Positions 112 through 41,978 of a stretch of DNA of 64,000 bases are shown here, in pieces. Source of the DNA: Branchiostoma floridae (taxonomy: Eukaryota > Chordata > Leptocardii > Amphioxiformes > Branchiostomatidae); assembly GCF_000003815.2 (NCBI RefSeq), contig NC_049992.1, positions 17,749,747 to 17,813,746 of the forward strand, written 5' to 3'. A program made the position numbers and the translations under genes. Each line of letters opens with the position of its first letter. The first letter of the stretch is position 1. The notes below the pieces were generated by a model, which did no database searches, was not told the DNA's origin, and saw only the letters and a list, made by a program, of their open reading frames with translations.

Positions 112-275
112 GAGACCCATTACACTGCACTTGGGGCACCGTTGCGGCACTACTGGGTTCAAAAGATTGCGAATTCCTTACGTTTTGTGTATTTTGTTGT
201 CTTCTAAGTCATAGTTTTACATATTACACAATATCTATCGCAATAAGTGTAAAAATTGGCGAAAGTAACACTTCA
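112..275. mobile_element. MITE fragment, GGTGGTATCTCACTG family
   Basis: CACTGCACTTGGGGCACCG and the family core (TTTTGTGTATTTTGTTGTC) are present, but the right end is missing. Confidence 0.6.
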
Positions 276-3112: not shown

Positions 3113-3191
3113 TTAACTTCCGTCTGCACTTTGTATGTGGCACTGTTAAGATAAGTTGAGCGTCAAGAGCCGGGATCGGATTTGAACTCCC

Positions 3192-3422
3192 CAAAGGTGG
3201 TATCTCACTGCACTTGCGTCGAGCTTGCGTCACTGCGGGGTTCGTTCACTGCGTTTCTTCGATTGTGTATAATTTAGATATTGTGCAATACGTAAAAGTA
3301 TGACTTAAAAGACAATAAAAAATATACAAAAAGGAAGAAAATTCATTAATTCTTTATCGCTGAAATTCGTTGAGTATCTTTCCAACCCCACAGTGAGGCA
3401 AGCGTGACGCAAGTGCACCTTA
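3192..3422. mobile_element. MITE, GGTGGTATCTCACTG family, internally altered
   Basis: It begins AAAGGTGGTATCTCACTGCA and ends with a degraded inverse (GTGCACCTT). The core lies in inverted orientation relative to the 0.1-kb copy. Confidence 0.65.
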
Positions 3423-5825: not shown

Positions 5826-5849
5826 TGTGCATTTAAGGCAATAATCATT

Positions 5850-7232: not shown

Positions 7233-7281
7233 ATGGATTTTCGGCTGTTTCTCGCGTTTGGCCTGGCCCTGGGGTGGCAAG
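7233..7281 (+). CDS. Exon 1: signal peptide
   Basis: The ATG at 7233 sits in a good context (CACCATGG). It opens 16 codons plus one base, ending at a strong donor (AAG|GTAAGA). The peptide MDFRLFLAFGLALGWQG has a charged start and a hydrophobic core, as expected of a secretion signal. Ending in phase 1 after a signal peptide is typical of IgSF genes. The 5' UTR extends upstream for an unknown distance. Confidence 0.75.
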
Positions 7282-10200
7282 GTAAGAACTTTCTCATTTA
7301 ACGCTTTGACGATCCACCTGTTTCGGTTGGAACTCTAATACCGTTATCTGTAACCGAAGAAGACACTAGAATACTGTATACGACGTCTGTTGACCGTAAT
7401 CTTGTCTTCTAATATTAGGTCGCCCATTCTTAGCCGGTACCGTAATTGATACGGAATTCTAATGCAAAGTACTAAGACTTTAAGTAAATCACTAAATGTT
7501 TGGTTATATTGGTAGTACCATTTTTTCTGGAATGTTTTACAGTGGTAAGAGCACAACTTATCGACGACAAAGAATCTAGCGTTAACGTTCTACAAACATT
7601 TTTTGTAATAAGACAACCGAGTTTTGTACGACATTTCGACGACTATCTAAAGAATGCCCTCAATGCTCTGTCGTAAAGTTGAGGTGCAACGAATGTGGCC
7701 GGGCGTTTCCGCATGCAGTATTTGTCCTACGAACGTGCTGATAGAATATGGAAAGGCGACGAACAGTTCTAAGCGGTGTGTTTTGTGTATTCTGGTCCAT
7801 TACTCAATTGTGGGAAATGATTGGATTAATAGCAGAAATGGAAACTGCGACATTGTGACGAATACTAGACTTTGAGTGTGCTTTGTTACATTTACCAAGA
7901 ACATAGCACGACTCCGATAGCATATGCTTCCGTACTGTTTTTACTCGTTTGACGTAGATTGCCCATACTGGGTTGCCGGTATCGACGGTCCTTAGGACTT
8001 TCGTGTGGAAATATATAAGAAAAACTTTATCACATACATGTAGCTAGAACGATACAAACATATGACGACCCTAGCACCGTGCAATTTTCGTACGGTTTTG
8101 CCGGTTTGACATACTTTTTCCCTAACGGACCGGCCTGTATCAACATTTTTCCGTACTCCCATGCACGGAAATACAACTTCATCAGGTAGCTTAAACATTA
8201 CGAATATAGGACGACCCTAGCACCGTTCTATTGTAGTACTGTTTCCCCCTATATCACGTACTTTGTCCCTATGGGGTGGTCGATATCAGCATTCTTCCGC
8301 ACTATCTTGTTCAAGTGTACGAAGATTTCATCACGTAGTTAAAACAGTACGAACACATGACGACGCTATCACCGTGCTATTTTCGTACTGTTTCTCGGTA
8401 CCATTTGACGTACATTGTCCCAAATGGGGTGGCCGGTCTCAGCATTCTCTCAGACTTCAGTGTGCGAGTGTATAGAAATATACATCATTGCATGACGTAG
8501 TTAAAACAGTACGAACACAGGACGACGCTATCACCGCGCTATTTTCGTCCTGTTTCTCGGTACTTTTTGACGAACATTGTCCAATGGGGTGTCGGTACAA
8601 GCATACTCCCGAAATTTTGTGCACGAGTGTACAAAGATATACATAATTTCATGATGTAGCTAAAACAGTACAAACACCGGACGACGCTATCATGGTGCTA
8701 TTTTCATATTGTTTTTTTCAGTACTTTTTGACGTACATTGTCCCAACGGGTTGGCCGGTTTCAGCATTCTCCCAGACTCTCGTGTACGGAAATCATGACT
8801 TCATCCTCCCGTGAAAATATTTGATTCGATTCCCGCATCTCACAGATAGTTATCACCCTTTCCATTACACTTTTTACGGAAACGTATGGATTTTTGTGTC
8901 ACATTATCCCCAAGACGCATCTTGAGACTTCACAGACCCGAACTAAATTCAATATAATCTCCAATACGCAATATGGTATATGTTTCCCCCCCTAGAAGAA
9001 ATGCCTCCTCTGAGAGGCATAACGGATAGACTGATTAACATAATCCGATATATCGTCGACCCTGGGGTCGCACTAATGTCAACCAGATTTTTAACTAACG
9101 GGACCTCTATTGAACGCTTCCACGCGACCTGCACTCTGATAACAACGCGGGGAGTTAAATCTCATCTTCCCATCTAGTTCTAGAGGTGTGTCTGATTCCT
9201 GAAAATTGCTCATCGCGGCTCGGCGCTGTATAACTCGGTTTCCGCGAGACAAAATGGGACTTGATGCGGAAAATAACGGGGGAAATTTCCGGGACGTGCG
9301 GCCACGCTCGAGCGTAATTCTAAATCCTCGGCCCGCATTTTGGCGAAATGAGAAGCTTGGATCCTAATCACCTAGAGGGAGATACATCAGCATTTACGGC
9401 AAAATCTAGTTTAAGGAGGACTAGGCGTGGGGAGGTGGTCTTGATTGATCGGTTCAGTGCAGGGTGCATCTACGCTAGGATTTGTAAAGTGCTGAGGATA
9501 AAAGATGGTAGCAAGGCTGGCGGCAACACTGCATCAAACAAACTCCAAAATAACATTGAACCCCGTTTCTTCTGGGTAAAGCGAGGGGTTTCATATCTTT
9601 AAAAGCTGTCACATTTTGTGTATGAAGAATCAAAAATGTTTAATGTACGTATATTTATGTCTAGAAATATGTATTACGTTCTGTTCTGTTCTGATATACA
9701 AATGTCAATTTCAACTTCGTTCTTAACAAACTCCAACAATACATTCGGTCCCGTTTCGTCTAGTTTCAGTGTATGGATTGATAAAAACTGCAACATTGTG
9801 TATAAAGAATTATTAATGTTTGATACACATAGATTTATTCACAAATGCAAAATGTATATATTTCTGACGTACGTATACAGATTCTTAACAAACTCATAAC
9901 ATTATGTCCCATTTTGTTTAAAGTTAAGAGTTCTTAAAAGATTTTTTTATGTGCAAAGGCGTTTTAATGCTTACAACACTAGCTGTATATGCAGATGAAT
10001 GTGTATTATTCTTTACTCAGCTGAAGTTTTCTATACTGTAAATCATACGGATGTCCGCATCACATGTACATTAATGTCCAGTTGAGTTGGCCGTGCGCAC
10101 ACACTAACTCCATTTCACAAAGCCCCCATGGGGTTCTCTCACCAGAGCCTCGGCAGAAGGCACCGCTTAGTCGTCCGCCCGATGTCTTCATCTGATATCG

Positions 10201-13200
10201 GTTCAATGCCACTCCCACTGTACCTACCCTTCCCCCAGTGGTATTCCATTACACTTATCACATTCTTCATCTCTCCTATAGTGATCGACAGGGTGATTTG
10301 TTGGCGATAGATGTCAAAATATGCAACGAGACCTGTCTTTCAAGGGAAGGGTGAGGAATAGGGTTGTCATGGGCGGCTGCCAAGCAGCTCTTTCGCACCG
10401 AATATTTCATCGGGCGTACGCACAATAGGGAGATCTAATCGTGTTTTTCCTGACTCTCCCTTCAGAGTGCCCCGGGTTACTATCATAACTTTCCCCTCGT
10501 GAGGTTTGCTTGATGTATTAGCGGAAATGGGAGGGGAGTAAAGCGCTGTCAAGACTCTTTACCGTTAAGAGAGATGAAAGGGAGATCACCTACGTTACAG
10601 ATGTCTACAGAACTATCTTTGAAACACGATGTATGGATTTTTATTCTCTCGTAGCGGTAGTGAACTTTTTCATGCAGTCGTTATGCATTTTTTTGTCAAG
10701 TTTGATAAAATCACGCAGTGGAGGCGGTTTGGCATCGGATAAAATCAATCTTATACGTTTATTGCCAACGCACTATTCTGAGAACATGATAGAAACTTAA
10801 AGCGAACATTTACATTTAATGCATTTATGCACCAATTCCTCCTGGACCGCGACCAACTCATTGCACTTGAGGCACCGGTGCGGCACTGCATGGTTCGAAA
10901 GATTACTCAAGGAGTTTCAGAGATAAAGAACGAGTTTTCTTATGTTTTGTGCATTTTGTTGTCTTCTAAGTCATACTTTTACTTACTCCGCACTATGAGA
11001 AAAATCGGCAAAAATAACACAACAGTGCCGCAGTGAACGAGCTCCGCTGTGCCACACCGGTGCCCCAAGTGCAGTGAGATACCTCCTTTACTTCTCTATC
11101 TATAGCAGCCTCATAGGTGAGCTCCTAGTTCCGATCAATTAGTAAGTATGAGACCCCGGTTCAATCTTAGGAATGGTATATTGGTTGGGACTGCGCCCTT
11201 CTTTAGTAAGGGACGTAATCATGGGGTCCCTCGTTCGATTAGATGCCTCAAGCACGTTAGAGGAGAAAGGCCAGCTACCCCCCTAAGGCCACAGCAAGTA
11301 AATTTTATGGATGACATCAGCGCGCTCATTAATTTTTGCTTGATTTCAGAAAAAAACAACAGCTTTTTTCCTCTTCGGGGATGGTCAGATAGACCAAAAT
11401 AGGCAAGCATGTTGTGTTGTGGCCTAATAATCATACTTAGAAGTGACACTAGGGAGGTAGCCATGACTATAGTTGTATTAGTTGCAGAAGTGAAAATTTT
11501 TGGATAGTTGTAAAAGTGCCACAATATGTAAGCCATGAATGTAGTTGCCAGCTTGGCAAGTGATACAGGGATGAATGCCTTGTTATTTGTGATGTTGTGT
11601 TTTGTCACTCCAAATCTTGTTACGATGATGTTTATGGTGTCTATTTTGAAAATTTAGTCATCTTGTTTTTTTTTATCCATCTTGTTTTTTTTTCGCGCTA
11701 TCTCATTATTTTTGCACTCTGCATAGGATGTCATCCAAAGAATTTACTTGCTGTGGCCTAAGCATAAATATCCCCTGCTACTAAAACAACAAGGAACCTT
11801 GCGGACCTATGTGTCACTAGGAACTTCAAGGGTCCGCAGTAAGCTACCAAAATTGGATTTATGTCGCTCTAGGCTTAGTAATTGGAATGTCACGTTGAAA
11901 TGGAAAGACAACCAAACATACAAAATCGCTCTGTCAGATTTTATGTCACAGTAGGGTCTTTGCAAGGTCGCTGCCCTCGTTGAAATGGTGTATTTATCAC
12001 AATGTAGTCATGCTATTGATATAATGATGGACGGTATAATGCTACAGAATGTGCCCGACACGGATTCTGCTTCAGCTAAATCACCAGGGACTCCTCTAAT
12101 GAAGTCAGCAGCATATATCCGTAACCGCCTTCCCTTGCTCATTATTTATTCAGAATCTCCCAGAAGCAAATCATGGCAAATGTTTTATGTCCCCTCGTTA
12201 CGCTGTGGCGACCTTGCTGGGATCGGGATGCGATCTCAAATTTGACAGAGCGCTAAAGTAATGTTTTCGGCTTTGTTACTCTGTAACGGAGGTTAACCTC
12301 CGACGGCAGAGTATTGTTTTTGTACGATGTGATGAGTTCGCATCTGTATCTCTATGTTCCCTTTGCCGTATTCGTATGTACTTTGGTAAGTCGTCTGCAC
12401 GCAGTTTCGCGATGAGGCCCATTAATTTTGTTGTTGTTTTTTTGGGTATTTTCAGTCATATTTTGCATTATTATGAAGCCAGGGATTATACCAATCCAGG
12501 TCGTAGCGCCGTCGCCGTCTTCAATCTTTATCCATTAAATCAACATCACAGAGTTACCCCTTGGCAGTAGTACCTCTGAATACCGTTGATCTTACAGTAT
12601 GGAGTAAAATCACATTACCACAACAACTAGACACCGTAGGTATGACATGAAAAAAATGTCTAGTGGAATGGCAGCCGGACTCATCATCAACACACCCCTC
12701 CATGTGGTCCCTTTGGGATGCATCTACCGCCACAGACGTCACCGTTCTTTTATGGGGATCGCATCTGTAACGTAGTTATCGGGTCTGTGGAAAACAGCCG
12801 GGGGATTATCTACTTTGATTGAGTCCTATTTATCAAGACGCGACGACGACGACCCGCGGATGCCGTCCCTTTTATGAGCGCGCATTAAAGGGAATGTGTT
12901 GTCGTGCCGGCGACGTACTCAACCACTCACATCCGCCACGAGGATGTTTAATTGGGTATCCCGAAAATAACTAGATAGAGCTTTCTCTCTGTGGATGGAT
13001 ACTTCAATCATCTTGAGAGGAAAGTTCGGTTCCTGTATGCCTCATTACATGTCTGGAGAACGCACAATGTATAACGAGATTACTCAGACGGATCCATATT
13101 TCTCTCTTTTTCTTTCTTTCTCTATCTTCTTTATTCTTTATTTCAGGTTAAAAACCCATAGACACACAAAAGATACATACATATACATTAAAATCTCTAC

Positions 13201-16200
13201 CTGTACAATAAGTCATAACAGTTCTGGAAAAAAGAATTTCTGTAGAATATGTCTGACGTCAGCAAGTGCTGGACAATGGTATTATTGGAAGACGTTAATC
13301 TTTGTAGAAAAGAATAACACATTTTCCTTCGCCTTGCTTCAAAGCTGTCGGTCGAATTGTACACAAACATTGAGCTAGTGCTACATCGTCGTGGAAGATT
13401 CATGATAATCCGGAAACAGTTGTCTCTCTCTTCCTCTCTCGCTAAGTATATATATTATACTTAGATGTAGATAGATATAGAGAGAACGAGAGGGATAGAG
13501 AGAAAGAGGAGAGAGAGATGTGGTGACGAGCCCTTCCAGTTCTGTCCTGATACTTGCTACATTAGATAATCAATCGAACATCAAAACGGGATTTAAAACT
13601 ATACCAGTAACCATTTTTTTTTTCTATTTTGTTCTTGGACAGACGAGGACAATGTGGCACTGCACTCATATTAACAGTGCCACATACACGGTACAGACAG
13701 AAGGTAAAGATAGTCTTTTTACCTCCCCGACCGAAGTCAGGTACCCATTTTTACACCTGGGTGAAGTGAGAAAGGTCGTGTGAAGTGCCTTTCCCAAGGG
13801 CACAACGTCGGGGGGCACGGCGGGGATCGAACTAAGAACCTCTAGATTCCGAGCCGAACGCTTTACCAGTTACGCCACGCCCGACGCCACACGCTAGTAA
13901 CTATTGTTACAACCGTCCACTCCATGTCATTGACCTCCGTTGTTCGAAGAAGAAGAAGAGGAAGAAATGGGGAAAAAGCAATATGTTTCTCTTCCGCAAA
14001 GGTGGAAATATGAAAAAAAGGATAGGCACGAGTTTTTATTTGTCCAGGAAGTAGGAGAAGAACCCAACTTCTAGCAGATCGATGGAATAAAACGCGGTGC
14101 TGTTTGGTTAATGAAATGGTGCAAGGAGATGGATGTGCTGATGGGAAAAACATAAAAGGACGCACACAATTCACAGAAAAGTTTGTTCAAACAGAACACG
14201 GTAAACCTTCTTTAATAAAGTCTCATAGGATAACATTGACGCGGCGCTGTCTACCTATTCCATCCTTAATGTGATATCTCCGAAGGCTTCTGGCGCCATT
14301 CTGACTTGTGTACACAACTAGGATGAGACTGAAAAAGAATGGGAGAACTTTGAAACTTCGTAGCCTGACTAACTCACGCTTTTAGCACCCACTCCTTAGG
14401 TCAGGCCCCTAGAAGCTTAACAGTTAGTATCTACTAAAGCTAAGGGCACAACCCGCCGTGCGCGCAAATACGTGTTGTCTACATGCCAAAACCTGGGCAA
14501 TCTTTGGGGATCCGAAGTGGTAAGTACCGCCTCCGTACTGACTCGTACGAAATCCAACGGATTAAGTAGCACGCAGACACGCCGCAGAACTCTGCGTATA
14601 TGTCGATATTTCTCTGCCATCAGACTGCGGTTTCGCCCCTCGTATGAACCAGTAAAAGCAACGCGCGTGCCCCTTACATCGATTGAGATCACCGTACGTA
14701 CGCAGCACGTGTGAGTAGGGCCTACATACGGTGACGTGGCAATCGCACAGAGATTGCACGTTGTAAGCACGTACAACTCACTTACCACTAGCGCAACGAA
14801 CGATGCACTTAACCGGCTCACGGCCAGGGTGTCGTGCAGACCACATACTCACACATTGCGCAACCGTGCGAGTAACGTGCGTTGAGACGTGCTCTTGCCA
14901 TTCCTTCCGCACGTTTTCAGAAAAACGTACGGACAAAAAGCACGGACGGCGGGTTGTGTCCTTAGCTTAAAGGTGGTACGTATCTCATTGCCCTGGGGGA
15001 ACCGGTGCAGCACTAGTACTGTGGGGTTAGGAAGATTACTCGACGAATTTCAGAGACATAGAACGAATTTCCGTAGGATCAGCTTGGAGATTAGTAGGAA
15101 AGGGATCAGTAAGAAAATCTCCAGTTGGAACTGAATGACCGGCAAGCTAGAAGGTGAATGGAGGCAATCTAGGAGTTGAATGACCGCAAACAAGCAGGTC
15201 ATGTGAAACATAATCATCATCATCGGTCGCCTGCGGAGCTGTCAAACAGAAGTCTCGTCCACATATGTCTATCCGCAGCCAGTGAGGCAATATCGTCAGG
15301 GCTTAGACCCTCCCCAACCCCCAGTAGGTTCTGTATGAAGGTCAGACATTTCGTCTTCTGCCGTCCTGGGCACCGTTTGCCGTAGTTTAGGACAAGGAGG
15401 GCATGTGTCCTAAGTGGCTCTTCGATCTACGGACATTCTAAGGGCGTGTACGATAAAGCTAAGGGCACAACCCGTCGTACATGCAATTTATCAATACGTT
15501 TCTATTTTTTGGTTGGCCACGTCCGCCACGTAATTCTGAAAAGTTCAGGCTGTACAGGGTAGGCGCGTCACCCTTACTGGCACCTTCCGGGGGGGGGGGG
15601 GGGGTTGGAGTGGGGCGAATCCGCAGCCAGATGGCACACAAAGTTTTGCCTGAACGTAAACCTGCACGGCGTGTCTGCGTGCTCCCAACTCCGTCGGATT
15701 CCCTGCGAGTTCTTACGGAGGTGGTACTTACCACTTACGTATCCCAAAAGATTGCCCTCATTTTGACACGTAGACGGGTTGTGCCCTTAGCTTTAAGCGC
15801 AATTGACGCTGTCTAACTTTGCAGATGAGAGGCTGAGTGTCTGTCACCCTATGGTGCTTAATGTTCGACATGATTCTGTAACAGGATGTGTCAAGACAAA
15901 TAAGTTTATGTGGAACTGTAAAAATTGTGAAAAGTTGCACCTGGGCTGGGTATCGGTACAGCGTACCGGTACAAAACCGGTTTTTCTTATTGGACCGGTC
16001 CAGAAAAACCGGACCTGAAAAAATTTGGTGGACCGGATGTTGGACCGATTAGAAAATCAACAAATTATTTTATCAGGTATTCACACGTTTTGGGGCTTGC
16101 AGGTGGAAGAAAATAAGAAGAGTGAAGTAGAATAGGGTTTATAGTAATTTCTACCAAGTTTTACAGCCAATCGTAAAGGTGCAGTTAGCGCTGTAAGATT

Positions 16201-17765
16201 TTAAAACGCAAGTGTAAGTCTAATACAGTTAACCTCCACCAAACAGATTTCTTTGTAGTGACATGGACCATTAATATGAGTCATACTGTATCAGGTCTAG
16301 GTTCAGGTCTGGACCTGGACTTGATCCTTTGGACCTGAACCGGACCTGGACCTGAATTCTCTGTGCCGGTACCCACCCCTAGTTGCACCAGAACAGCTTT
16401 GGTACGATCAGAGCAGAGGAAAACCAAAATCGATAACGTTTGCCAGCTGTTAAAGCGAACCGGCTTTACTTCCGTTAACGGGCGATCACAAACGACACCG
16501 TTTCCCTGCAATCTTCTGCTAGGTCTTCTGCGATCATGATCCAATCCCCTGGGGACTATTAAGCTACATCTGTAGGACACCGCTTCAAGGAGCACTAATT
16601 TCTCTGCACTTTTTCTCTTTCCGCATCGCTGCGTTTTCCCCTTTAAACTTTCCATGTGCATCATCTTCATGCGTGCGTTGCTCTCTTTGAAGTCAAATTG
16701 CGAACGCCGTTCTCCTTTATGGCCAAAACGTGCTGATAGGGCCGAAAGTTTTAACCCAACGGAGAGAAAAATTACTGCAAAGCTGTAACGCTGAAATTTT
16801 GCAGTTTGATGTAAATTGCCATTGAGTTTAAGCCGTATATTCAATAACTGTTTGAGAAAATTGTAGGAGTCTACATTTATGTTCTCTCTTACGCCGATGA
16901 AGGTTAGACGTTGAGGAAAGTAACGGTTTCTCAAGCAACTGGAAATAATTTCGGAAACGCTCCGACGTAGACGTAGACTATAGGATCCACTATCTTTCGT
17001 CAAAGACACGAAAGATGGTTCTGTATCTCACTGCACTTGGGGTACTGGTACGGCGTTGATGGCTTCGAAAGATTACTCAACGAAGTTCAGTTTTAAAGAA
17101 TAATTTTCTTACATTTTGTGTATTTCGTTGTCTTCTAAGTAATACTTTTATTTTACATATTACGCAATATCTAAATCCTATTTTATAAAACATCAGCGAA
17201 AATGCCACAACAGTGTAGCAGTGAACGAACCCCACAGAGCAAGATCTCTCAATCAACAACTTTAAACCCAAATATATCAATTGACTGGTTTTAAACCAAA
17301 AAAAAACTATGAATTTTCGGCTAAAAGTACTGTACAGTATCAGTGACAAATGAAGATATTGCTCAGTGTATTGGATGCTACCTGAAATGTCTAGTCGTTT
17401 CCAAAATCATATCTAGTTGCTTGAGTAATTGCTATGTAGAATGTGTTCTCTCTTGTTTTTATTGGTTCAATTCACTAAACTTAATGATCTGAAAAACAAG
17501 TAAGAAATATTGATTTATCGCTGTTGTAATTGCTCATGAATTTTCATACAGGAAACCAAGTGGTATTAACGTTAGAGAGTGATAAACGTTTCTGTCATTT
17601 TACATCATGCAACAGTTTCCTATTAAGCTAGTTTGTTTCGTCGATATTTACGACAAGCAAGCTGGTGCAATCAAATTATAAAACATGTTGTTAAAAGGGA
17701 AGAAATTGAGGTTTAAGTGAAAAGCGAAAGGTCAATTTGAATATGAAATCGCACATGCACACATT

Positions 17766-17797
<32 letters not shown>

Positions 17798-32700: not shown

Positions 32701-35700
32701 TCATCCACTAAAAGGCCAGCGTTCCACTTCCCGTTGGGACCAAAGTACATCAGTTGCTCATTTGCATTTAGAGCACCCCTAGCCCAGGGGGATTGTAGAT
32801 TTATAGTAGTTAGTTTGTGGATACCTCTTTTAGAGGGCGCTAATGAATGGGGAGTATGTTGACTCACAAAGACCGCGAAATCGACCAGAACGTGGAAGAC
32901 GGCCAAACTGAACAACGTCAAAGTCGTGCCAATGGTATTCAAATGGCTCAAACGAAATCCAAGACGAGATTGTCAAGTCCCCGATAGCTCTAGAAACAAG
33001 TTCCATTGTATGTTTGAGTACATCCACATACGGTCAAATGTTGCACATTGCACATTTTCGATATATTCGTTTACGAATTCGTTAAAGACAAAAACGCACA
33101 TGCTTAGTTTGGGGAACAGCAACAATCTACTTACACATTTTGTAAAAACTTTATGTTCATTTAAGGCAGTTTCGTTTCGCTTCTTTAGGTCACTATCCGT
33201 TTAGTGGTTATTGAGCAAATGGTGCACTGAGACATTTGTGACAACTTGATTTTTATTCAATGCAGTTTTTCTCGTTTCTTTGAGTCGCACTTCTATAGAA
33301 GAGGCTATTGCAGTCATTTTGTGAGAACTTGGCGTTCATTTAAGGCGGTTTTATTGCGTTCGTTTGTCTTTCTTTATCCTGCACACACATTAAGCTGACA
33401 GACTCGTAACACCGTGAAACTCCATGAACCATACAAGCGGCATGTCCAACAGAGGAATTTGTTCCATCACACGGGGATGGATCGCTAGTATTTTCGATAA
33501 GTGGTGGTCTTTTTTACGTGCTCAATGTGTGGCTCTACTGAAATGCAGAAGTTCCATTTAACGTCTTATCCGAAGGACCTCTCTTACCGACCTTGGTACT
33601 CAAGGGTGAAGTAAGGAAATTCCTTTCCCAAGGGCACAACGTTAGAGCATAACAGGAGACTAGTACTAAAACCCAGGACATATGTGCTTTAAGCCAAACA
33701 CTCTTACCGTTACACTACGTGACGCCACAGTCACAGTTATATAAGGCCTAGGTCACATTTCCAAACCGGGGCCAGCCGTTACACTACGTGACGCCACAGT
33801 CACAGTTATATAAGGCCTACGTCACATTTCCAAACCGGGGCCAGACAGGGCAGCATTCAGAAACGAAAAGTATGATAACAAAAGACACCAAACTACAAGC
33901 TGGCATTATTTGTATATGTGTACATTTCTATTTTATTCGTTTACACAAATAGCCCGGCCCGGCCTACGTTTGAAAATGTGATGTAAACTTTAAAAGATAA
34001 CCGTTTCTCCAATGTGGTTTGGCGGACGTACTGGATTCTGTGAAATAGTTATTGAATCCTGGCTGCTCTCTTGGCTATCACGCCTAATGGCACCAAGATT
34101 ATCTGGACAAACATGCGGGTCGTTCGTAAGAAGATAGTCCGTCGAATGTCACCGTTGGAGCCTTGATGGACAGTTTGACTGATGGGGGTCGTCTCGCTTC
34201 TCAGGAAACCCGGAACCGTTGAGAGGATAGCTATTCTTAGTGACTTGTGTTATCTTGATAAGCGTCGCCAAGCTTAATGATACAGGTGCCATTTTTGAGC
34301 AGATGGATCTTCCTCTCCAATCAGTCCTATGTGGTTGAAAAAATGCAATTGCCGTATCGAACTTTGCAGAAAACTGTCTACTAAGTGTCACATTCTTATA
34401 ATGTAGGTAGATTTTGTCGTGTACTCCATCAATATCGGTTTACAATCCTACCAGCTATCACGTCTTCACCAGATAAAGGTTATATCCCTTGAATTGCTTA
34501 CATGTACTTAGGGTCTCATTGATGAGTTTCTTCTTCCCAAAGACTTCTAGGTTATAATTCGTGTTTTACATGGTCGCCTTTATAATGAAGTTACCTGAAA
34601 TGTCAGCAGATTTTTCATTCTCTGTTGAGCAAATTTACTCTATATAATAGAAAAAAATTGCCAATGACTAGAATCCATAGGTTTGTTGTTAATAGCAATT
34701 GCAAGCTACAATTAGTCAATCCCAGCAAAAGGCACTTTTTCCTTGCTAGCGTACAACCGCACCACTCAGAACCCATGGCTGTGTACCTCCGACCTAGCGC
34801 GCGGCTGTCAAACTTTACCTGCTGATTTCTTCAGTTACAAGTAAGTTTTCACCAATCTAACTTTTGATATCAGTTCGGCTGGCCAAAAGCGAATTTCTCA
34901 CCGCTAAAAACATGCGTCCATGCAGCCGTTCAGTTTTTGGCTCGGATCTATTTTAGGGTACCCACTCGCGGAGTAATACATCAATGAGACCTTAACATAT
35001 TGCCTAAATCCCTATAATTGCTTACATGTAGTTATTTACTCAGCATATATTTTTGTCAATAACTTTAGCTTTATCGTGTTCGGTATACATATATAGTTGG
35101 GGTGTTTGGTCCAGAACCCAAAGGCCCTGAGTTCGAACCCCTGACATGACACCCATGTTGCGCTCTTGGGATGACTTAAGAAAAATTACCCTCACTCCTC
35201 TCAGGTGTAAAAAAAACAGGTTTCTGACTCAAGTTGGGAGGAAGACACAGTGGATAACAACCCACCGCTTTGTGACTACCATTACGTTATTAAGCTCATT
35301 GTTCTTCTTTTTTGCACTGCCAGCATAAATTATGAATATAACTTGAGTGCAGTACCACATTTTTTTTCTCTCTGTCCAAAAGCAAAACTTGAAATATGGT
35401 TTGTTCAAGATGTTCAAGCACAGAACGAACTGTCGATATTGATATCAATGTTTGCTGCAAAAACTGTTAATAGCTTACGCAAACTATTTTTTCTACTTTG
35501 CAGTACCTCCTACCGTCAAAGTGGGACCTTCCAATCCCTACATCACGGCCTGGGGTAGGTCAGGGGTCCTGACATGCGCAGTGAAGGATGCTAAGCCCAA
35601 CATTACGTCACTACATTGGGAAAAAGATGGCGAAGTAATCGACTCCTTGAGATACAGTACGAAGTACTCCGGAGGAACGATGGAGTCTCCCGCCCTGGAA

Positions 35701-38700
35701 ATACGTCATATAAGCAGGACCGACTCAGGCGTTTACGCATGCGTGGCTGGCCATACTGTGCGAAGCTCAAGTGCGAGTTTAAGGATGAAAGTTCTCTGTG
35801 GGTGCTTTATGTCATTATTTTGTTTCTTTGAAAATAATACCAAAACAGATGAAAGATTGATCCAATTTAACTGGTCGACTATGTATATCGTTTAAAGGAA
35901 TCTATAGATAGACTTTATTGTATAAGATACAATATCTTTGAACAAACTGCAAAGACAATCGTTTTATTGAAGACCGGCCTTTCGGTGACCGTTTCTCACA
36001 TTCTTGTTGAAGGCAATATTAGCTAGTTCATAACATTCATACAAATGTACAAATATGTATTCAAATTTCTAATATTCGGGAAAGCATTGTAAGCCAAACA
36101 CATATCTTTATGTGTAAGTATTTTACGTTTGAGACCGCGCCTACAAGCAGCGTCACCTAGCTGCAGTGTATAATAGGACCAGTCACCGAATCATCGTATT
36201 GAATAAAACAGATGTGCTTACTTTACAAGACATATAGGTGTACAAATTACATTGTTATCAACTTTTCAAGAATGTTTGCTTTCATCCGTAGACAACTTCA
36301 TCAGGCAAATATTCATATAGTAAGGGCACTTTAGGCACAACCAGGGAGAACTTACTTCCAACGTTCTGATGTCTATCAGACACTATCAATCATCAGGGTA
36401 GAATGACTGGAAACTACTTCTTGCTGCTACTTATAGTTGATGTAGGTGGCGCTGCAGCAGCAAAGATGCCGTCCCAAACGTGGCTCAGCTTGTATCCCCC
36501 CTCGTATCTGTTCATGACTGGAGCTGATTTTCTGATCCACACTGCCTCCTTAATCCTCCTTATAATTATAAGTACCACAAGAAGTAGTTTCCAGTCATTC
36601 TACCCTGATGATGGTGTCTGGTAAACAGCGAAACGCTGGAAGTAAGTTCTTCCTGGTTGTGCGTAAAAGCCTTACCATATTTTTGCTTTATTGTTTCAAT
36701 ATTTTTCTTTTTCTGGCGTAGACCCCGCTTCCATCATCAGTATCTCGGAGCCAGTGACGGCCACCGTGTCAGATAGCGTTACTCTGCAGTGTGTGGCGGA
36801 CGGCAACCCCCCTCCCAACATCACGTGGTCCAGGAACGGGATACTCATGCGCAGTAACGTGGGCACGGTACCACGTGACGTCATCATCGGGGCCATCCAA
36901 TTGAAGAACGTCCAGACAAACGACACGGGGACGTATCTGTGCAAAGCCAGCAATGGCGTTGGGGACATTAGCACACGGTCTACAGCACTCACCATTAAAG
37001 GTAAATCTAGATCTTATGGATCGCTACTGGAAATAGCAGGTGATGTTATCTTTGATTGTAGGTTCAAGGGACTTAACTGAACTTAAGCTGCCGTTTGTCA
37101 AAGAGACGTCAAATTCCTTAATATAGATAAAGGTGCATTTTCAGAAATACAATAGAGGAGCAACGTCAATAAAGGTTAGACATCCAGGTAATAAGATACA
37201 CCAAAAATGCAGTTAATCAAGCAACTGGACATGCTTTTGAAAACTGTAAGACATTCAGGCAGAATTCACTGTCACTGACACTGAAGAGATCTGAGAACAT
37301 TCCAGATTTCGTCATGCCAGACTGAACAGATTTCGTTAGTGTCACTGGCAAAAAGTTGTGCACGTGGATGCCATCTGAACGTCTGATCGTTTTGAAAATC
37401 ATATTCAGTTGCTGAAGTAACTGTTTTTTTTAATAGAGACAGTGGTGGGCCTTAAGGGCATGATCGGGCATAACGCACCCGCTTACACGAGTCAAGGGCA
37501 GGAGGAACCCCTTGCATTCTTGGTCGGAAGTCCTCCTAGGAAACGAAAACTCCAAACAACAAACCTGCATCTGCTGAGTCCGTCTTACACGTGGCATGCA
37601 GTTCTTGTACCTGTGGCACTTAGTGCGCCAGTAGACGAGAGGGTGGAGAAGGAAGTGCACACCCCTGCTTCATTTACAAAAATTCACGCGCAGGCCAGGC
37701 AGACAGGTTGCCTAACCCACCCTTCCGAGACATATGGATGCCAACAACTCTCATCTTACCTGCAATTATCAATAAAAAATTTGCAATAAACTTATATATA
37801 ACCTTATATGTTGATACATGTTATAGGATTGAGAGATCGAGTCGGCGCCTCAACAGTTGCTGTGATTGTTGGGCTGACAGCGGGACTCCTGTGGCTGGTG
37901 GTGTGTGTGGGTCTGGTGGCATACCTCGTCAGGAGACGCCAAAGGCAGAAGGAGAAGAAAAAGTTCGCCTTCTATTACAACATGGGGAGGAGGGAGCCCG
38001 ATGTGGGAGATGGAGGGGTGGAGGAGGACAAAGAACCGCCGCCGTACACTGCAATGCCCGGTAATTCACCTTCACTGTATACCTCTAAAAAAGGGTAACA
38101 GGTCGTTTCGTCACAATGTCAGTTCGCTAACGTAATTTCGCCACAAAGTAAGTCGTTTCGCCACAAAACACAAGTCGTTTCGACACAAAAAAAAAACAAC
38201 TTGAAGTCATTTTGCCACATTTGCCTATTTAATTGCTGTGGAACGATGTTAAATGAGATAGGCGGCGTACGGTCATACGAGATATACAGCGGTAGTTGTG
38301 TAGAAAGACTCTCTTCATTCTGCTTTTAGTACTTCAACATGTCATAAACAAGAATGATTCTATCAGCTGTTGAGATTATTGGGTGCGTTTCATAAAAGCA
38401 TCTTTGAAGCAGATAGTCTGCTGTAAATAACGATATATATACTGCCGATAAGCACAATAGTAAACTGGCTCACCCTCAAGCAAATGGTTATTTTCCGGAG
38501 CAACAAGAAGTAAAAATGGTCGAGATAACGATGTGATCGTTTCAAGTAGTTCATTTGGGACCTCTAATCGATCGTCTATTGAGACATTGTAGTCAATCAA
38601 TCCTAATCCACTGGCTTTGCCAGATTACGCCTCAGCTGTTCGAACTATTTCGTTAATCCTACGAGCTTTACGCAGGGATTAAGAAATACACTTCCTTATC

Positions 38701-41700
38701 CCAACACTTCAATCACCTGGGGAAATTAAACTGTTATCTTCTACCATAAATCAACAAGGATGTACTTACTTGAGAAGGTCGCAAGATGCTTCAAGACCTA
38801 GATGTCTTTATGGACCTGTAAGTGCGTGGAGTTATCGTCGCTAAGGACCGTAGAAGAGCCTGTAAAGATCGATATACTATAAAACACAAAAGTAATGTTC
38901 CAGATGTTTCAATGTAGTCAATGACTCTTCAACCAATTCGTGATCTATAGTTCTTGTTATTTTTTCCTGGTAGACATATTATACACAGCTGTGTAAAAGG
39001 TATTTGTTTTTTAGATATTAGCATGAAAGTTCATCTGTGTTGGTAAATGACATTGTGGAAAAACTAAACTTTACTTAACCAACACTAAGATTAATTGGGA
39101 CTTACCCCAAATTTTCAGCCGACTCCGTCAGCCTTGTTCACGGAATGGACCCGTCTGCTGTAACTTCCGGACGTGACGCCAGGGACACACGACTGCAGCA
39201 GAGGGTCGTAGATGCCAGATAACCTAATGGAATAAAGACCTGCTTCAAACCGACCCAGACTTTAAGAAAAGGTACCTGTATCCCCCATATACGTTGCCAN
39301 NNNNNNNNNNNNNNNNNNNNNNNNNNNNNNNNNNNNNNNNNNNNNNNNNNNNNNNNNNNNNNNNNNNNNNNNNNNNNNNNNNNNNNNNNNNNNNNNNNNN
39401 NNNNNNNNNNNNNNNNNNNNNNNNNNNNNNNNNNNNNNNNNNNNNNNNNNNNNNNNNNNNNNNNNNNNNNNNNNNNNNNNNNNNNNNNNNNNCTTTGCAA
39501 GAGGAATAAAGGAGGCTGTGTACATTCGTGCCCACCGTCCATCACTAAACAGAGACGGGGGGCGACACAGGTTATCTGGCATCTACGACCCTCTGCTGCA
39601 GTCGTGTGTCCCTGACGTCACGTCCGAAAGTTACAGCAGACGGGTCCATTCCGTGAACAAGGCTGACGGTGTCGGCTGAAAATTTGGGGTAAGTCCCAAT
39701 TAATCTTAGTGTTGGTTAAGTAAAGTTTAGTTTTTCCACACTTTTTTAGATATTGTTTGTGTTTTGAAGTTTGTGCTCTATATGTAGTTTGCGTTCTAGC
39801 TATAGTGTAAGTTCTAGATGTAGTTTGCGTTCTAGCTATAGTTTGCGTTCTGGATATAATATTTGTTCTACATGTAGCTTGTGTTTAAGATGCTAGGCAG
39901 CTGCGAAAAGAGATTACAATGCATTTGTGTTCTAGATATATATAGTTTTTGGTTCAGATATAGTTTGTGTTCTAGATGCAGTTTGTGTTCTAGATGTCAT
40001 TTGTGTTCTTAATATAATTTGTGTTCTTAACATAGTTTGTGTTCTAGACATAGTTTGTGTTCTAGATGTATTTTGTGTTCTAGACATAGTATACACGTTC
40101 GAGATATAGTTTTTCACACAGCTGCGGAAGCGACAATGTTCACATTGCATTATCAAGACATGTTTAACAGCTGAATGTTTCTCTTGCAGCCAAACCTGAA
40201 ACGAAGACATCCAGATACGGCGGCATCAACACTGTAAGAAGATCGTTAGGAAAGAAAGGTAGGCGGTTTAACATTTGGTGGAATGGACACAGACTGAAAA
40301 ATATTGTAGCTTATCTTGCACTATGGAAACTATCTATGCATTGATTTCGTATGTGTTATAGAGCTTATATTGCTGTAGATCCTAAATACATGTATCGAGA
40401 ATTCATTTAAAGGTACATTAGCATTAAAGATTATAGCTAAAAAGTGTTTAGAACAGCATCATACGAACCTTTTCTTTTAGACGTGATGCAGTAATAAGGT
40501 CGGTCATCATTCCGAGTACGCATGCGCCAGATCAATTGTGAAGGCTCTTGACTTGTAAACAGCCTGAGGTCTTGTCCAGACAATGATTCATACATGTCCA
40601 GACTCCGTCCGTCGATTAAATAAAATATATGCTCATGGCTCATGGGGCCGTTGACCTTTGACCTTGCGCATGCGCACTCGGGATGGTGTACGATCTCTAA
40701 CTTTTCCTACAATGCGTACTGTACTTGGCGTTGTTGTGTAAATTGCTTGGATCCACATACAGTTGAATGAAATATGTTTTCTATAACTTAAGACAGGAGA
40801 TATGCCCGAGCCTTATACGGCTATCGACCTCGAGAAGACAATGAACTGACCCTTGAGGTGGATGACGTCATCGAGGTGCTGGAGGGGGAAGATGGCGGCT
40901 GGTGCCTGGGTTACCTGAGGGGCAGGATAGGCCTGTTCCCCTCCAACTATGTCAGATTTATTTCCGGAAGTGAAGGTAAATTTATCAGATAAAACACGTC
41001 CTCCATACCCCTCAATAAACACAAATTTATTTTACAGTACTATCTTTTAAACGATTTTATTATCTCCATGACTACGGAGGTATTAGGTTCAGTCTTTCTG
41101 TATATGTTGGTGTAGTCCACGGTTTGCCGGGATCCAAATTTGTTTCCGAAGGCTGAGTTGGCCAAGGTCCAAAGTTGTTCCCCGTTTGCATCCATGAAGG
41201 AATTAAGTTTGTTATTGATGAAATCAGGACCTCGAGAACGATATGTGAAAGGGTATCACATAATAATGTGTAAAATGAACATGACTGTGATACATTTTGT
41301 CAAGGAATTTGCAAAACCCTGAATATTTCACTAAGGCCACAGCAAGTAAATTTTATGGATGACATCCTCTGCAGACTGCAAAAATGATGAGATAGGGCGA
41401 AAAAAAACAAAATGGGTAAAAAAAAACAAGATGGCTAAATTTTCAAAATAGACACCATACACGTCGTAACATGATTTGAAGTGACAAAACGTGGCATCAC
41501 AGTCAACAAGGCATTCATTCCTGTATTTAAAAGTGCACCAGTGTAGTTAAAGTGACACTAGTGTGGTAGACTGGTATCATTAACCATGTTGGCAACTACA
41601 CTCATAGCTTCCATAGTTGTGCCACTCCTACAACTATCTATCAAGTTTCACTTCTGCAACTACAGTCAATGCTACAGAGTCTCTAGTGTCAATTCTACAT

Positions 41701-41978
41701 TCAATAATTTGGTTACAACACAACTTTTACCCATTTTCGTCTATCCGGCCTTCCCTGAAGAAGAAAAAAATTCTTGTTTTTTTTTTCTGAAATCAGGCAA
41801 AAATTAATGAGCGCTGGATGTCATCCATAAAATTTACTTGCTGTGGCCTAAGGTCTGATAATATGTAAATCTATGTTTATTTCATGTTCTTGTGATCTCA
41901 GCTTTGGCTATGAAGTCTGGTGGAGCCTGCCAGAACGTCGTGCTGCAAGAGTCTGTCGGATCCCAACGAAGCATATGA
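7233..41978 (+). CDS. IgSF transmembrane receptor with cytoplasmic SH3 domain (8-exon model, 511 aa)
   Basis: Predicted type I membrane protein joined from exons 7233-7281, 18484-18834, 35504-35797, 36722-37000, 37827-38060, 40190-40258, 40793-40975 and 41902-41978. The summed length is 1536 nt, giving 511 codons plus stop with the frame open throughout, and all seven introns are phase 1. Domain order: signal peptide (about 1-17), V-type Ig without canonical cysteines (about 24-134), C2-type Ig (135-231, Cys158/Cys213), C2-type Ig (233-324, Cys255/Cys305), transmembrane helix (about 333-359), basic stop-transfer stretch, tail with tyrosine motifs (374, 398, 412), SH3 (about 429-483) and a 28-residue end. 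The cysteine-less V plus C2 layout recalls the hepaCAM/CD2-like group, but I know of no vertebrate member with an SH3 tail. A role in adhesion or immune-type signalling is inferred. The exon set is well supported; its linkage across long introns rests on phase and order. Confidence 0.8.
7900..8800. repeat. Tandem array of 146-162-bp units
   Basis: The CGAC(C/G)CT landmark recurs at 8066, 8212, 8361, 8523 and 8682. Units share a CTATTTTCGTACTGTTT segment and a TGGGGTGGCCGGT-TCAGCATTCT segment. Copies are moderately diverged. The array lies in intron 1 of the IgSF-SH3 gene. Confidence 0.75.
8801..10846. other. Intron 1 stretch, nothing identified
   Basis: No exon, repeat or RNA gene could be supported here. 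Confidence 0.4.
10847..11093. mobile_element. MITE, GGTGGTATCTCACTG family
   Basis: CATTGCACTTGAGGCACCGG leads in and CCCCAAGTGCAGTGAGATAC closes, with the shared core between. It lies in intron 1. Confidence 0.7.
11095..11282 (+). mobile_element. tRNA-derived SINE, family B
   Basis: TAGCAGCCTCATAGGTGAGC, then CCCCGGTTCAATCTTAGG, and the core AGTAAGGGACGTAATCATGG. It abuts the MITE at 11283. Confidence 0.55.
11283..11762. mobile_element. MITE, CTAAGGCCACAGCAAG family, copy 1
   Basis: Left CTAAGGCCACAGCAAGTAAA and right TTTACTTGCTGTGGCCTAAG enclose 480 bp, both ends continuing into GGATGACATC or its inverse. It lies in intron 1, adjacent to a SINE. Confidence 0.8.
11763..13637. other. Intron 1 stretch, little identified
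   Basis: Only a degraded MITE-like piece (12395-12530) and purine/pyrimidine-rich simple sequence around 13090-13520 are visible. Confidence 0.4.
13638..13889 (-). mobile_element. tRNA-derived SINE, family A
   Basis: On the minus strand: GGCGTGGCGTAACTGGTAAA (A-box region), AGTTCGATCCCCGCC (B box), then the family core. It lies in intron 1. Confidence 0.75.
14435..14970. mobile_element. MITE, family with AAGCTAAGGGCACAACCCG ends, copy 1
   Basis: Terminal inverted repeats TAAAGCTAAGGGCACAACCC (left) and the inverse ending CTTAGCTTAA (right) enclose about 535 bp. The right end touches a partial MITE of the GGTGGTATCTCACTG family. Confidence 0.7.
14968..15075. mobile_element. MITE fragment, GGTGGTATCTCACTG family
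   Basis: Only the left end (AAAGGTGGTACGTATCTCAT) and part of the interior are seen. Confidence 0.5.
15454..15795. mobile_element. MITE, AAGCTAAGGGCACAACCCG family, copy 2
   Basis: It has the same termini as the 14.4-kb copy (TAAAGCTAAGGGCACAACCC and its inverse CGGGTTGTGCCCTTAGCTTT) but is only about 340 bp long. It contains a G13-14 run near 15590. Confidence 0.75.
15941..16380. mobile_element. hAT-like non-autonomous element with 8-bp target duplication
   Basis: The 440-bp element is flanked on both sides by AGTTGCAC (15933-15940 and 16381-16388), a perfect 8-bp target duplication, the length made by hAT transposases. Its ends are CTGGGCTGGGTATCGGTAC and the inverse of AGGGGTGGGTACCGGCAC, resembling hAT termini. 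The interior is rich in GGTCC/GGACC palindromes. No transposase is present. Confidence 0.75.
16389..17012. other. Intron 1 stretch with a 242-codon minus-strand open frame
   Basis: The frame (17009 to 16281, minus) runs into the hAT-like element and stops inside it. It has no recognisable domain, so I do not call a gene. Confidence 0.35.
17013..17245. mobile_element. MITE, GGTGGTATCTCACTG family, right end lost
   Basis: The left end is TGTATCTCACTGCACTTGGG; the core is intact; the right end stops at GAACGAACCCCACAG. Confidence 0.6.
17757..17850. repeat. (CA)n microsatellite
   Basis: Interrupted CA repeat in intron 1 of the IgSF-SH3 gene. Confidence 0.9.
18484..18834 (+). CDS. Exon 2: V-type Ig domain lacking both canonical cysteines
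   Basis: The exon is bounded by a CAG acceptor and a GTAAGT donor, phase 1 to phase 1, 117 codons. The fold is recognisable: a B-strand VTLPATY, the C-strand tryptophan in VAWFK (Trp57), a long C' to D region, an E-strand SLRIK and the F-strand DDGTYVLSV. At the two positions where Ig domains carry the disulfide cysteines there are Ala44 and Leu114; Asp108, Gly110 and Tyr112 of the DxGxY motif are kept. There is no cysteine anywhere in this exon. Loss of both partners together suggests a stable disulfide-free V domain, as known for CD2 domain 1 and hepaCAM, rather than random decay. Confidence 0.88.
18870..19166 (-). mobile_element. tRNA-derived SINE, family A, just after exon 2
   Basis: The same tRNA-like head (GTGGCGTAACTAGTAGAG) and core as the 13.6-kb copy. 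It starts within 40 bp of the exon 2 donor. Confidence 0.75.
19528..19655 (-). mobile_element. tRNA-like SINE head, Leu/Ser-type
   Basis: The minus strand reads CCGTGGCCGAGCGGTTTCAT, then after a long variable part GAGTTCGATCCC. A and B boxes are good, but the body does not fold as a normal tRNA, so I call a SINE rather than a tRNA gene. Confidence 0.55.
19795..19890 (-). pseudogene. CR1/L2-like LINE C-terminus, downstream half
   Basis: On the minus strand this continues the frame left open at 23690: with the TTAA restored, FNIFK is followed by SRAAAE and a stop. The two halves therefore belong to one older LINE copy split by the foldback element. Confidence 0.6.
19891..23689. mobile_element. 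3.8-kb foldback element with long inverted arms, TTAA target site
   Basis: Two arms of about 1.2-1.35 kb are inverted copies of each other (19891 to about 21080, and about 22350 to 23689). Both ends read TTAAGAG/CTCTTAA, and the flanks rejoin into one LINE reading frame if a single TTAA is kept, so TTAA is the target-site duplication. That target is typical of piggyBac-type elements, although the ends do not start with the usual CCC. Each inner arm is built of tandem units of about 182-184 bp; their hallmark CACGTGG-TGTCC recurs near 20412, 20594, 20776 and 20957, and inverted at five places on the right. The AT-rich middle has no transposase. Two matching 62-codon frames, one per arm, are mirror images of one another and not genes. 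Confidence 0.75.
23690..23805 (-). pseudogene. CR1/L2-like LINE C-terminus, upstream half (interrupted)
   Basis: The minus strand encodes RTQYRSGSFLPRTIRVWNAL and then QCSTVEAATFNIFK, a familiar C-terminal LINE motif (SFxPRTIRxWNxL). It is cut at 23689 by the foldback element. Its continuation is found 3.8 kb away at 19890 and below. Confidence 0.7.
24165..24345 (-). mobile_element. Penelope-like retroelement 3' end, single copy
   Basis: Near identical to the left half of the 36.3-kb locus (shared AAACTACTTCTTGCTGCTAC and CCCAAACGTGGCTCAGCTTG), with a frameshift after VMNRDEG. No inverted partner is seen. Confidence 0.55.
25330..25570. repeat. Inverted repeat with AAGTCCGTATGAAGTCCGTA ends
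   Basis: TTCAAGTCCGTATGAAGTCC and its inverse GACCTCATACGGACTTGA lie about 150 bp apart, each itself a short direct repeat of GTCCGTATG. Probably a small MITE. Confidence 0.6.
25855..26270 (-). pseudogene. Second LINE 3' end, degraded
   Basis: On the minus strand, starting near 26255, one reads CPFCPKHIEDEFRLIMEC, the same zinc-knuckle region as in the LINE at 63 kb but with the histidine position as Arg. After a small frame break come LFLFLKSSITNFKRLVANN and a stop about 65 codons on. AATAAAG follows at about 25870. It is a truncated, frameshifted copy in intron 2 of the IgSF-SH3 gene. Confidence 0.65.
26271..28579. other. Intron 2 stretch, nothing identified
   Basis: No exon or complete element is recognised. 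A C10 run sits near 27625 and an 83-codon frame at 26744 is of unknown meaning. Confidence 0.4.
28580..30815 (+). repeat. Tandem array, about 355-bp unit, six copies plus a partial
   Basis: The phrase CTCAGCTG that begins each unit recurs at 28613, 28970, 29330, 29685, 30040 and 30395, spacing 355-360 bp, with a truncated seventh unit after 30720. Most units keep an open frame of roughly 70-130 codons with the shared peptide GGAVFNTTASVNPPVDLH and SWQWRVNDAFN, and the opposite strand is open too. The unit length is not a multiple of three, so copies are not one continuous protein. Each frame is preceded by TTGTATTTTAG, which resembles a splice acceptor. It lies in intron 2 of the IgSF-SH3 gene. 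Either a satellite derived from a transposon coding piece or a cassette array; the first is more likely. Confidence 0.7.
30830..31489. other. Intron 2 stretch, AT-rich, nothing identified
   Basis: AT-rich with homopolymer runs. TGGATGACATCCTCTGAGAA near 30884 recalls the end of the CTAAGGCCACAGCAAG MITE family but lacks the rest. Confidence 0.35.
31490..31802. mobile_element. Second copy of the hAT-like element, diverged
   Basis: The right 80 bp match the 16.3-kb copy (GGTCCAGGTTCAGGTC..., CCTGGACCTGAATT). The left end reads AGGAGTGGGTAAAG. The flanks ATAAATAC and ATAAGTAC may be the old 8-bp target duplication with one change. It lies in intron 2 of the IgSF-SH3 gene. Confidence 0.55.
32386..32610 (+). 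mobile_element. tRNA-derived SINE, family B
   Basis: The head TGTCCCTGTAGCTCAATTGG is a clear tRNA A-box region. The core GGAAGGGAGGTAAACTATGG and AAGTGCATCAAGCACTTTA resembles the 11.1-kb copy. Confidence 0.65.
33575..33727 (-). mobile_element. tRNA-derived SINE, family A, partial
   Basis: The core CCTTTCCCAAGGGCACAACG and a degraded head are visible; the head is included in the 69-bp duplication at 33707. Confidence 0.6.
33707..33844. repeat. Perfect-looking 69-bp tandem duplication at a SINE end
   Basis: CCGTTACACTACGTGACGCC and the next 49 bases are repeated head to tail with one visible substitution (GGCCTAGG versus GGCCTACG). The copied block includes the 5' end of the minus-strand SINE at 33575-33727. 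Confidence 0.85.
33845..35097. other. Intron 2 stretch, nothing identified
   Basis: No supported exon or repeat. Confidence 0.4.
35098..35262 (+). mobile_element. tRNA-derived SINE, family A, before exon 3
   Basis: GGCCCTGAGTTCGAACCCCT carries the B box; the core TGCGCTCTTGGGATGACTTA and GACTCAAGTTGGGAGG follow. Confidence 0.65.
35504..35797 (+). CDS. Exon 3: first C2-type Ig domain
   Basis: The acceptor is a pyrimidine tract plus TTTGCAG. The exon begins PPTVKVGPSNPYI. The domain has Cys158 (VLTCAV), Trp172 (LHWEKDG), an E-strand ALEIRHI, and Asp207/Gly209/Tyr211/Cys213 in DSGVYACVAG. There is one N-glycosylation sequon (Asn166, NIT). The donor needs choosing: GT at 35791 would leave phase 0 and GT at 35802 phase 2, while CT|GTGGGT after 35797 gives phase 1 and joins cleanly to the next exon as KVLYPAS. 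I chose it for that reason. Confidence 0.87.
36310..36682. mobile_element. Paired retroelement 3' ends (Penelope-like, GIY-YIG type), outward facing
   Basis: On the minus strand at about 36425-36570 one reads KEAVWIRKSAPVMNRYEGGY then KLSHVWD, ending in a stop near 36426. This is the conserved C-terminal pattern of the GIY-YIG part of Penelope-like elements. The tail beyond the stop (36310-36420) is repeated in inverse orientation at 36578-36682, so two 3' ends face outward. It lies in intron 3, and the inverted tail ends about 40 bp before exon 4. Confidence 0.55.
36722..37000 (+). CDS. Exon 4: second C2-type Ig domain
   Basis: The acceptor is GCGTAG after a T-rich tract; the donor is AAAG|GTAAAT; phase 1 to phase 1, 93 codons. 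It is a textbook I/C2-set domain: EPVTATVSDSVTLQC (Cys255), the GNPPPNITW turn with Trp267, an E-strand region AIQLKNV and NDTGTYLCKASNGVG (Cys305). Sequons lie at Asn264 (NIT) and Asn298 (NDT). This domain is membrane-proximal because the next exon carries the transmembrane helix. Confidence 0.92.
37195..37432. repeat. Imperfect inverted repeat in intron 4
   Basis: AGCAACTGGACATGCTTTTG near 37220 is roughly inverse to GATCGTTTTGAAAATCATAT-TCAGTTGCT near 37385. A related single arm is at about 17370-17440. Confidence 0.45.
37827..38060 (+). CDS. Exon 5: transmembrane helix and first part of cytoplasmic tail
   Basis: The acceptor is TTATAG and the donor CCCG|GTAATT, phase 1 to phase 1, 78 codons. 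A short stalk (GLRDRVGAS) leads into a hydrophobic helix of about 27 residues (333-359) containing a small-residue GLTAG stretch. The stop-transfer sequence RRRQRQKEKKK follows at once. The tail then has YYNM at Tyr374 (a YxNM motif, the class bound by PI3K p85 and Grb2 SH2 domains when phosphorylated), an acidic stretch, and EPPPYTAMP, which is both a PPxY WW-domain ligand and a second YxxM (Tyr398). Functions are inferred from motif families. Confidence 0.88.
38095..38220. repeat. Short degenerate tandem repeat in intron 5
   Basis: GTCGTTTCGCCACAAA-type units of about 20-30 bp recur four to five times. Confidence 0.6.
39054..39227 (-). mobile_element. Penelope-like 3' end, left arm beside the assembly gap
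   Basis: The minus strand reads LSGIYDPLLQSCVPG through VNKADGVG and a stop, then a tail to 39054. It is the inverse of 39567-39741. Confidence 0.6.
39300..39492. other. Assembly gap (193 N)
   Basis: A run of N between two inverted retroelement arms. The palindrome is a likely cause of the failed assembly. An exon in phase 1 could be hidden here, but the flanking exons already join in frame. Confidence 0.95.
39493..39741 (+). mobile_element. Penelope-like 3' end, right arm beside the assembly gap
   Basis: The plus strand reads FARGIKEAVYIRAHRPSLNR and DGGRHRLSGIYDPLL, to TGA at about 39679, then a tail inverse to that at 39054. The EAxxIR...LNRxGG pattern matches the C-terminal part of GIY-YIG retroelement endonucleases. 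Confidence 0.65.
39750..40110. repeat. 18-bp minisatellite upstream of exon 6
   Basis: Units of the TAGTTTGTGTTCTAGATA type repeat with interruptions up to about 80 bp before exon 6. On the minus strand they read as SRTQTM repeats, an artefact of the 18-bp period. Confidence 0.85.
40190..40258 (+). CDS. Exon 6: short linker exon with ITIM-like motif
   Basis: A small exon of 23 codons between a strong acceptor (CTCTTGCAG) and a donor (AAAG|GTAGGC), phase 1 to phase 1. It reads AKPETKTSRYGGINTVRRSL and then GKK. SRYGGI (Tyr412) fits the S/I/V/LxYxxI/V/L consensus of immunoreceptor tyrosine-based inhibitory motifs, and RRSL fits a basophilic kinase site. With the last residue of exon 5 it makes PAKP, a minimal PxxP that the downstream SH3 domain could in principle bind in cis. 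The exon is small, so recognition rests on splice sites and phase. Confidence 0.72.
40793..40975 (+). CDS. Exon 7: SH3 domain
   Basis: This is a complete SH3 domain in a single exon. Visible signatures are ARALYGYRP (the ALYxY motif), EDNELTLEVDDVIEVLE (RT loop into the diverging turn), GGWCLGYLRGRIGLFP (binding-groove Trp462) and PSNYV (Pro475, Tyr478). All main ligand-pocket aromatics are present. Frame fixes the acceptor: AG at 40791-40792 gives phase 1 (DRRYARALY), whereas AG at 40795-40796 or 40798-40799 would shift the frame. The donor is GAAG|GTAAAT, phase 1. If the intron is retained the protein stops after six more codons, at a TAA near 40990. Confidence 0.9.
41331..41852. mobile_element. 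MITE, CTAAGGCCACAGCAAG family, copy 2, just before exon 8
   Basis: It has the same ends as the 11.3-kb copy. The right end lies 49 bp before the exon 8 acceptor in intron 7. A diverged interior of the same family, without clear ends, lies at about 51780-52160. Confidence 0.8.
41902..41978 (+). CDS. Exon 8: C-terminal coding exon
   Basis: After the acceptor TGATCTCAG the phase-1 frame reads ALAMKSGGACQNVVLQES and then VGSQRSI before TGA at 41976-41978. There is no recognised domain. It is chosen because it is the first well formed acceptor after the SH3 exon that continues phase 1 to an early stop. It is the least certain exon; a different terminal exon downstream is possible. Confidence 0.55.

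Follow-up and report, generated by a model that had tools for sequence, protein, structure and literature searches.

The plus strand of the window, by which we mean the whole 64,000-nucleotide stretch of Branchiostoma floridae DNA analyzed here, can be read as a chain of eight exons that encodes, in order, a signal peptide, a V domain, 2 further immunoglobulin (Ig) domains, a transmembrane (TM) segment, and an SH3 domain. All junctions of this model are in phase 1, and the joined exons give 511 residues followed by a stop codon. The chain probably represents one gene for a single-pass receptor of the Ig superfamily with a V-I-I ectodomain, whose cytoplasmic tail would carry tyrosine motifs together with an SH3 domain of its own. 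An earlier sequence-only reading had proposed the same exon model, and its 511 residues, signal peptide, 3 Ig domains, TM segment, SH3, and Trp462 were all recovered, with the splicing predicted rather than observed. That reading placed a 70-residue tail before the SH3, where the model gives 66 residues ahead of the SH3 exon.

The four exons that encode recognizable domains are far above chance in Pfam searches. Exon 2 (18484-18834) is a phase 1-1 exon for a V-set domain (E = 2.1e-12; 47.6 bits against a cut-off of 26). Exon 3 (Ig2; 35504-35797) and exon 4 (Ig3; 36722-37000), likewise phase 1-1, encode Ig domains of the I-set type and match Ig_3 (E = 9.4e-11 and 1.6e-16; 42.5 and 61 bits against a cut-off of 30). 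With these scores all of the Ig domains exceed the curated Pfam cut-offs, as expected for a member of the Ig superfamily. Exon 7 (40793-40975) holds a complete SH3 domain (SH3_9, E = 7.8e-17; 61.3 bits against a cut-off of 30) and contains ALYGY, Trp462, and PSNY, which correspond to ligand-groove residues of known SH3 domains. Its start could lie at 40793 (AAG, phase 1) or at 40797 (CAG, phase 2).

The remaining parts of the receptor were read by eye. Exon 1 (7233-7281) supplies the start codon, the signal peptide MDFRLFLAFGLALGWQ, and a phase-1 donor. In exon 5 (37827-38060; phase 1-1), residues 335-359 are hydrophobic and RRRQRQKEKKK comes after them; the exon also encodes a 43-residue tail with YYNM, PPPY, and YTAM. 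Signal peptide and single TM helix thus fall in one modelled chain, for which the exon joins are predicted. Two further exons are uncertain: exon 6 (40190-40258; 69 nt, phase 1-1), encoding AKPETKTSRYGGINTVRRSLGKK, and exon 8 (41902-41978), which lacks any domain and provides the final 25 residues and the stop.

A Pfam scan of the whole plus strand in three frames (stops as X, E up to 0.01), which may overlook short, divergent, or split domains, returned nothing beyond the V-set, the 2 Ig domains, and the SH3. On the minus strand, no Pfam domain was found in three frames across 35-45 kb. Of the 21 minus-strand open frames of at least 100 codons, 8 were searched, giving one listed match, which fell below its cut-off. 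Two long open frames on this strand, at 16284-17027 (248 codons) and 62827-63522 (232 codons), are without a Pfam match. Rfam gave 0 matches at the gathering score. When seven pieces were searched against the window with tblastn, only self-matches were returned at E < 0.1, so no tandem gene copies were detected there.

Splice sites were scored with generic metazoan weights, and percentiles are relative to all plus-strand GT/AG sites of the window. The donors of the signal-peptide, V, Ig3, TM, exon 6, and SH3 exons are at or above the 99th percentile, while the Ig2 donor (TCT|GTGGGT) is weak, at the 79th percentile only. The acceptor is at or above the 96th percentile for V, Ig2, Ig3, exon 6, and exon 8; for the TM exon it is at the 83rd and for the SH3 exon at the 87th (AAG) or 81st (CAG). 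The model is also weak at the SH3 acceptor and in exons 6 and 8. Exon 6 is the better of 2 candidates and has good sites at both ends; its score is 9.39, and 9.4 was reached in 9 of 200 simulated Markov introns. Its GC content is 0.45, against 0.52-0.59 in the remaining exons. Exon 8 is 1 of 6 last-exon candidates among those listed. An alternative frame over the end of the last exon (41956-41985) reads SDPNEAYEEM and contains a third YxxM; this frame was dropped, as the sole phase-compatible site among the AG acceptors inspected by eye was poor.

The central question is whether the Ig exons and the SH3 exon belong to one gene. An ATG is missing from the SH3 frame, and a stop lies directly before it, so an upstream coding exon is required; the SH3 exon was accordingly rejected as the start of a separate coding sequence. 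The nearest recognizable upstream coding exon is the TM exon, 2.7 kb away, a gap below the 11.2 and 16.7 kb of two introns in the Ig part. The TM exon can be joined to the SH3 exon in frame either directly (38060-40793) or through exon 6, and poorer pairs exist at 38094-40797 (weaker) and 38076-40797 (very poor). Agreement in phase is weak evidence when taken alone, with about 1 in 3 expected by chance and more where alternative sites are available. Between the two exons lies an assembly gap (a run of 193 Ns, 39300-39492) that could conceal an exon.

The principal alternative is that of two adjacent genes, with the Ig receptor ending either past the TM exon, where the frame continues to GNSPSLYTSKKG and then a stop, or in an exon that escaped notice, and with the SH3 belonging to a separate gene. 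If the TM donor is skipped, an in-frame stop is indeed reached at 38096-38098, six poly-A-like hexamers lie between this stop and the SH3 exon (38725, 39231, 39505, 40423, 40615, and 40619), and the SH3 acceptor is weak. Against this, the TM donor is at the 99th percentile, and 22 kb of the plus strand downstream contain no further Pfam domain. An SH3 exon without an in-frame ATG would also need a first exon of its own. In 38061-40792 there are 2 candidates for a first exon spliced directly to the SH3 (threshold donor score of at least 3), sharing one donor of score 3.2, compared with a mean of 1.5 in Markov sequences, 84 of 200 of which had at least 2; the count is at chance level. This test covers single first exons within that interval that splice directly to the SH3 exon. 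False fusions of neighboring genes are described for published lancelet models in passages of PMC4967905, which speaks for two genes, and because of this record we keep the one-gene reading at probable. Two adjacent genes are, on this evidence, unlikely.

A second alternative is a special case of one gene, and its likelihood overlaps that of the one-gene reading: the SH3 exon could be a cassette, present in some transcripts and missing from others that stop at the TM exon, and the receptor would then alternate between a form with the adaptor module and one without it. The TM exon stays open to its own stop when the donor is not used, and several in-frame routes lead to the SH3 exon, both of which would fit such a switch. 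Open extensions of this kind are, however, frequent by chance, and we regard the cassette as unlikely.

Least well supported is an error in the 5' part of the chain, in which the signal peptide and the V exon would come from a different gene than Ig2-Ig3-TM-SH3; this could be combined with both views of the SH3. It draws on the very long introns with tandem arrays, 11.2 kb between exon 1 and V and 16.7 kb between V and Ig2. The exon at 7233 is nevertheless the sole signal-peptide candidate in 1-18484 (phase-1 donor score of at least 4 and a hydrophobic core), no second candidate was found between V and Ig2 with the same thresholds, and all joins are in phase 1, leaving this reading improbable.

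Several tandem arrays were noted in the window. Two arrays with units of about 185 bp occupy 20408-20988 and 22410-23173, and the first 26 bases of their consensus units are exact reverse complements of each other. A 355-bp array with 5.9 copies lies within the V-Ig2 intron (28612-30726). Toward the end of the window are a 145-bp array with 16 copies (58178-60476) and a 163-bp array with 4.2 copies (60724-61413).

The one-gene model has consequences for how the tail could work. The 43-residue tail of exon 5 contains two YxxM motifs, YYNM at residue 374 and YTAM, in addition to PPPY; at least two YxxM occurred in 275 of 100,000 shuffles of this tail, a figure to be read with the motif having been chosen after the tail was seen. 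The YYNM of the predicted tail is a CD28-like YxNM, a motif that fits the SH2 consensus of both p85 and Grb2. Exon 6, if real, contributes an ITIM-like SRYGGI. The modelled tail contains no SH3 ligand of class I, class II, or the PxxxPR type, and its one bare PxxP starts at the boundary with the uncertain exon 6. Docking of the SH3 on its own tail by way of canonical ligands was therefore rejected, and their absence makes self-docking disfavored; a non-canonical contact between SH3 and tail is possible. The earlier suggestion that the receptor regulates itself through a PAKP or PPPY stretch is thus not supported, and PPPY is a WW-type motif. Its other suggestion, that the receptor docks proline-rich partners directly, gains from the complete SH3 with its groove residues and is conditional on the modelled splicing. 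Since the tail offers no canonical ligand, the SH3 most likely holds an outside proline-rich partner, while the tyrosines would recruit SH2 proteins upon activation, if the predicted phosphorylation and binding occur.

These features can be combined into a possible mechanism. The SH3 may have arrived as a shuffled phase 1-1 exon in an Ig gene whose junctions are all in phase 1. The Ig domains, with the cysteine-free V at the tip, would bind a ligand, and the SH3 would dock a proline-rich protein from outside the chain, such as a regulator of actin or of endocytosis, which would thus be kept at the receptor with no adaptor in between. Phosphorylation of YYNM and YTAM would then be expected to recruit the SH2 domains of PI3K p85 or Grb2. 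A single chain would in this way do the work of a receptor plus an adaptor of the CIN85 or Grb2 type. We tentatively describe the product as a receptor-adaptor chimaera, with a cysteine-free V tip, CD28-like tyrosines for the docking of SH2 domains, and an SH3 of the CIN85/Grb2 type, possibly splice-switched, a description somewhat less likely to be right than wrong in all its parts. Were it true, a signaling complex built from two proteins in vertebrates would be a single polypeptide here.

Passages of PMC4284660 report many gained domain pairs and extensive exon shuffling in the lancelet genome, with an Ig expansion almost wholly by way of 1-1 phase exons. This high rate is disputed as largely the product of prediction error in passages of PMC4967905 (related: PMC6071037). 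The term "SH3" is absent from the available main text of PMC4284660, PMC4967905, and PMC6071037, and exact-term searches of open-licence PMC papers listed none that, by its title or the opening of its abstract, deals with an Ig receptor with a cytoplasmic SH3. If real, an exon-shuffled Ig receptor with its own adaptor module would be a new combination of known parts. Confirmation by transcripts would reveal that nature has fused an Ig receptor to the type of SH3 module usually recruited by such receptors, and would offer a pointer to receptor-adaptor pairs that possibly act together elsewhere. It would also provide a clean test case between the proteome innovation and the gene-prediction error set out in passages of PMC4284660 and PMC4967905, respectively.

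Comparison of the ectodomain with known systems begins with the V domain (18484-18834), which has zero cysteines and hence lacks the canonical Ig disulphide; Ig2 and Ig3 contain 2 cysteines each. Its first PDB match is CD276 (1.4e-7 summed over two domains, the best single domain being 0.044), followed by an antibody light chain (3.7e-5, likewise two domains summed), a HAVCR1 homologue (1.1e-4), CEACAM1 (0.0012), and 2B4 (0.0028). AlphaFold2 on the V domain alone gave an unusable model (mean pLDDT 42.5). Among the best 60 of 99 PDB matches, Ig2-Ig3 resembles the tandem Ig domains of titin, DSCAM, Robo, contactin, and many more, so no family can be named from them. The vertebrate CEACAM and CD2/SLAM receptors are alike in having a V-type tip, further Ig domains, one TM segment, and tyrosine motifs in the tail. 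The N domains of CEACAMs and domain 1 of CD2/2B4 are also without the canonical disulphide, and since this is so the likeness may reflect disulphide loss and not descent. Both are moreover weak matches, with the HAVCR1 homologue and CD276 equal or better, and to our knowledge neither has an SH3 in its tail. Membership in CD2/SLAM was rejected: the Receptor_2B4 profile of Pfam scored 20.9 bits, narrowly below its cut-off of 21, and the modelled tail contains no ITSM (TxYxx[VI]).

On the cytoplasmic side, CD28-type costimulatory receptors share the YxNM motif, which is YMNM in CD28 and YYNM here; CD28 differs in having one V domain and SH3-binding proline motifs but no SH3 of its own. Ig and SH3 domains occur in one polypeptide in Trio/Kalirin and obscurin, as in our model, but these are intracellular proteins without a signal peptide. 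We know of no vertebrate Ig receptor with an internal SH3, a type of domain usually carried by separate adaptors. GRB2 heads the list of SH3 matches in the PDB (2.8e-15) by the summing of its two SH3 domains, the better match being the C-terminal one (35 bits), while the best chains with a single SH3 are CIN85 (SH3KBP1; 1.2e-12) and then CD2AP (1.4e-11). Myosin 1E, cortactin, and others score closely behind, so any assignment to one SH3 subtype would be tentative. CIN85, CD2AP, and GRB2 have SH3 domains of a similar sequence type, but all are soluble adaptors, whereas the SH3 described here apparently lies inside the receptor chain itself.
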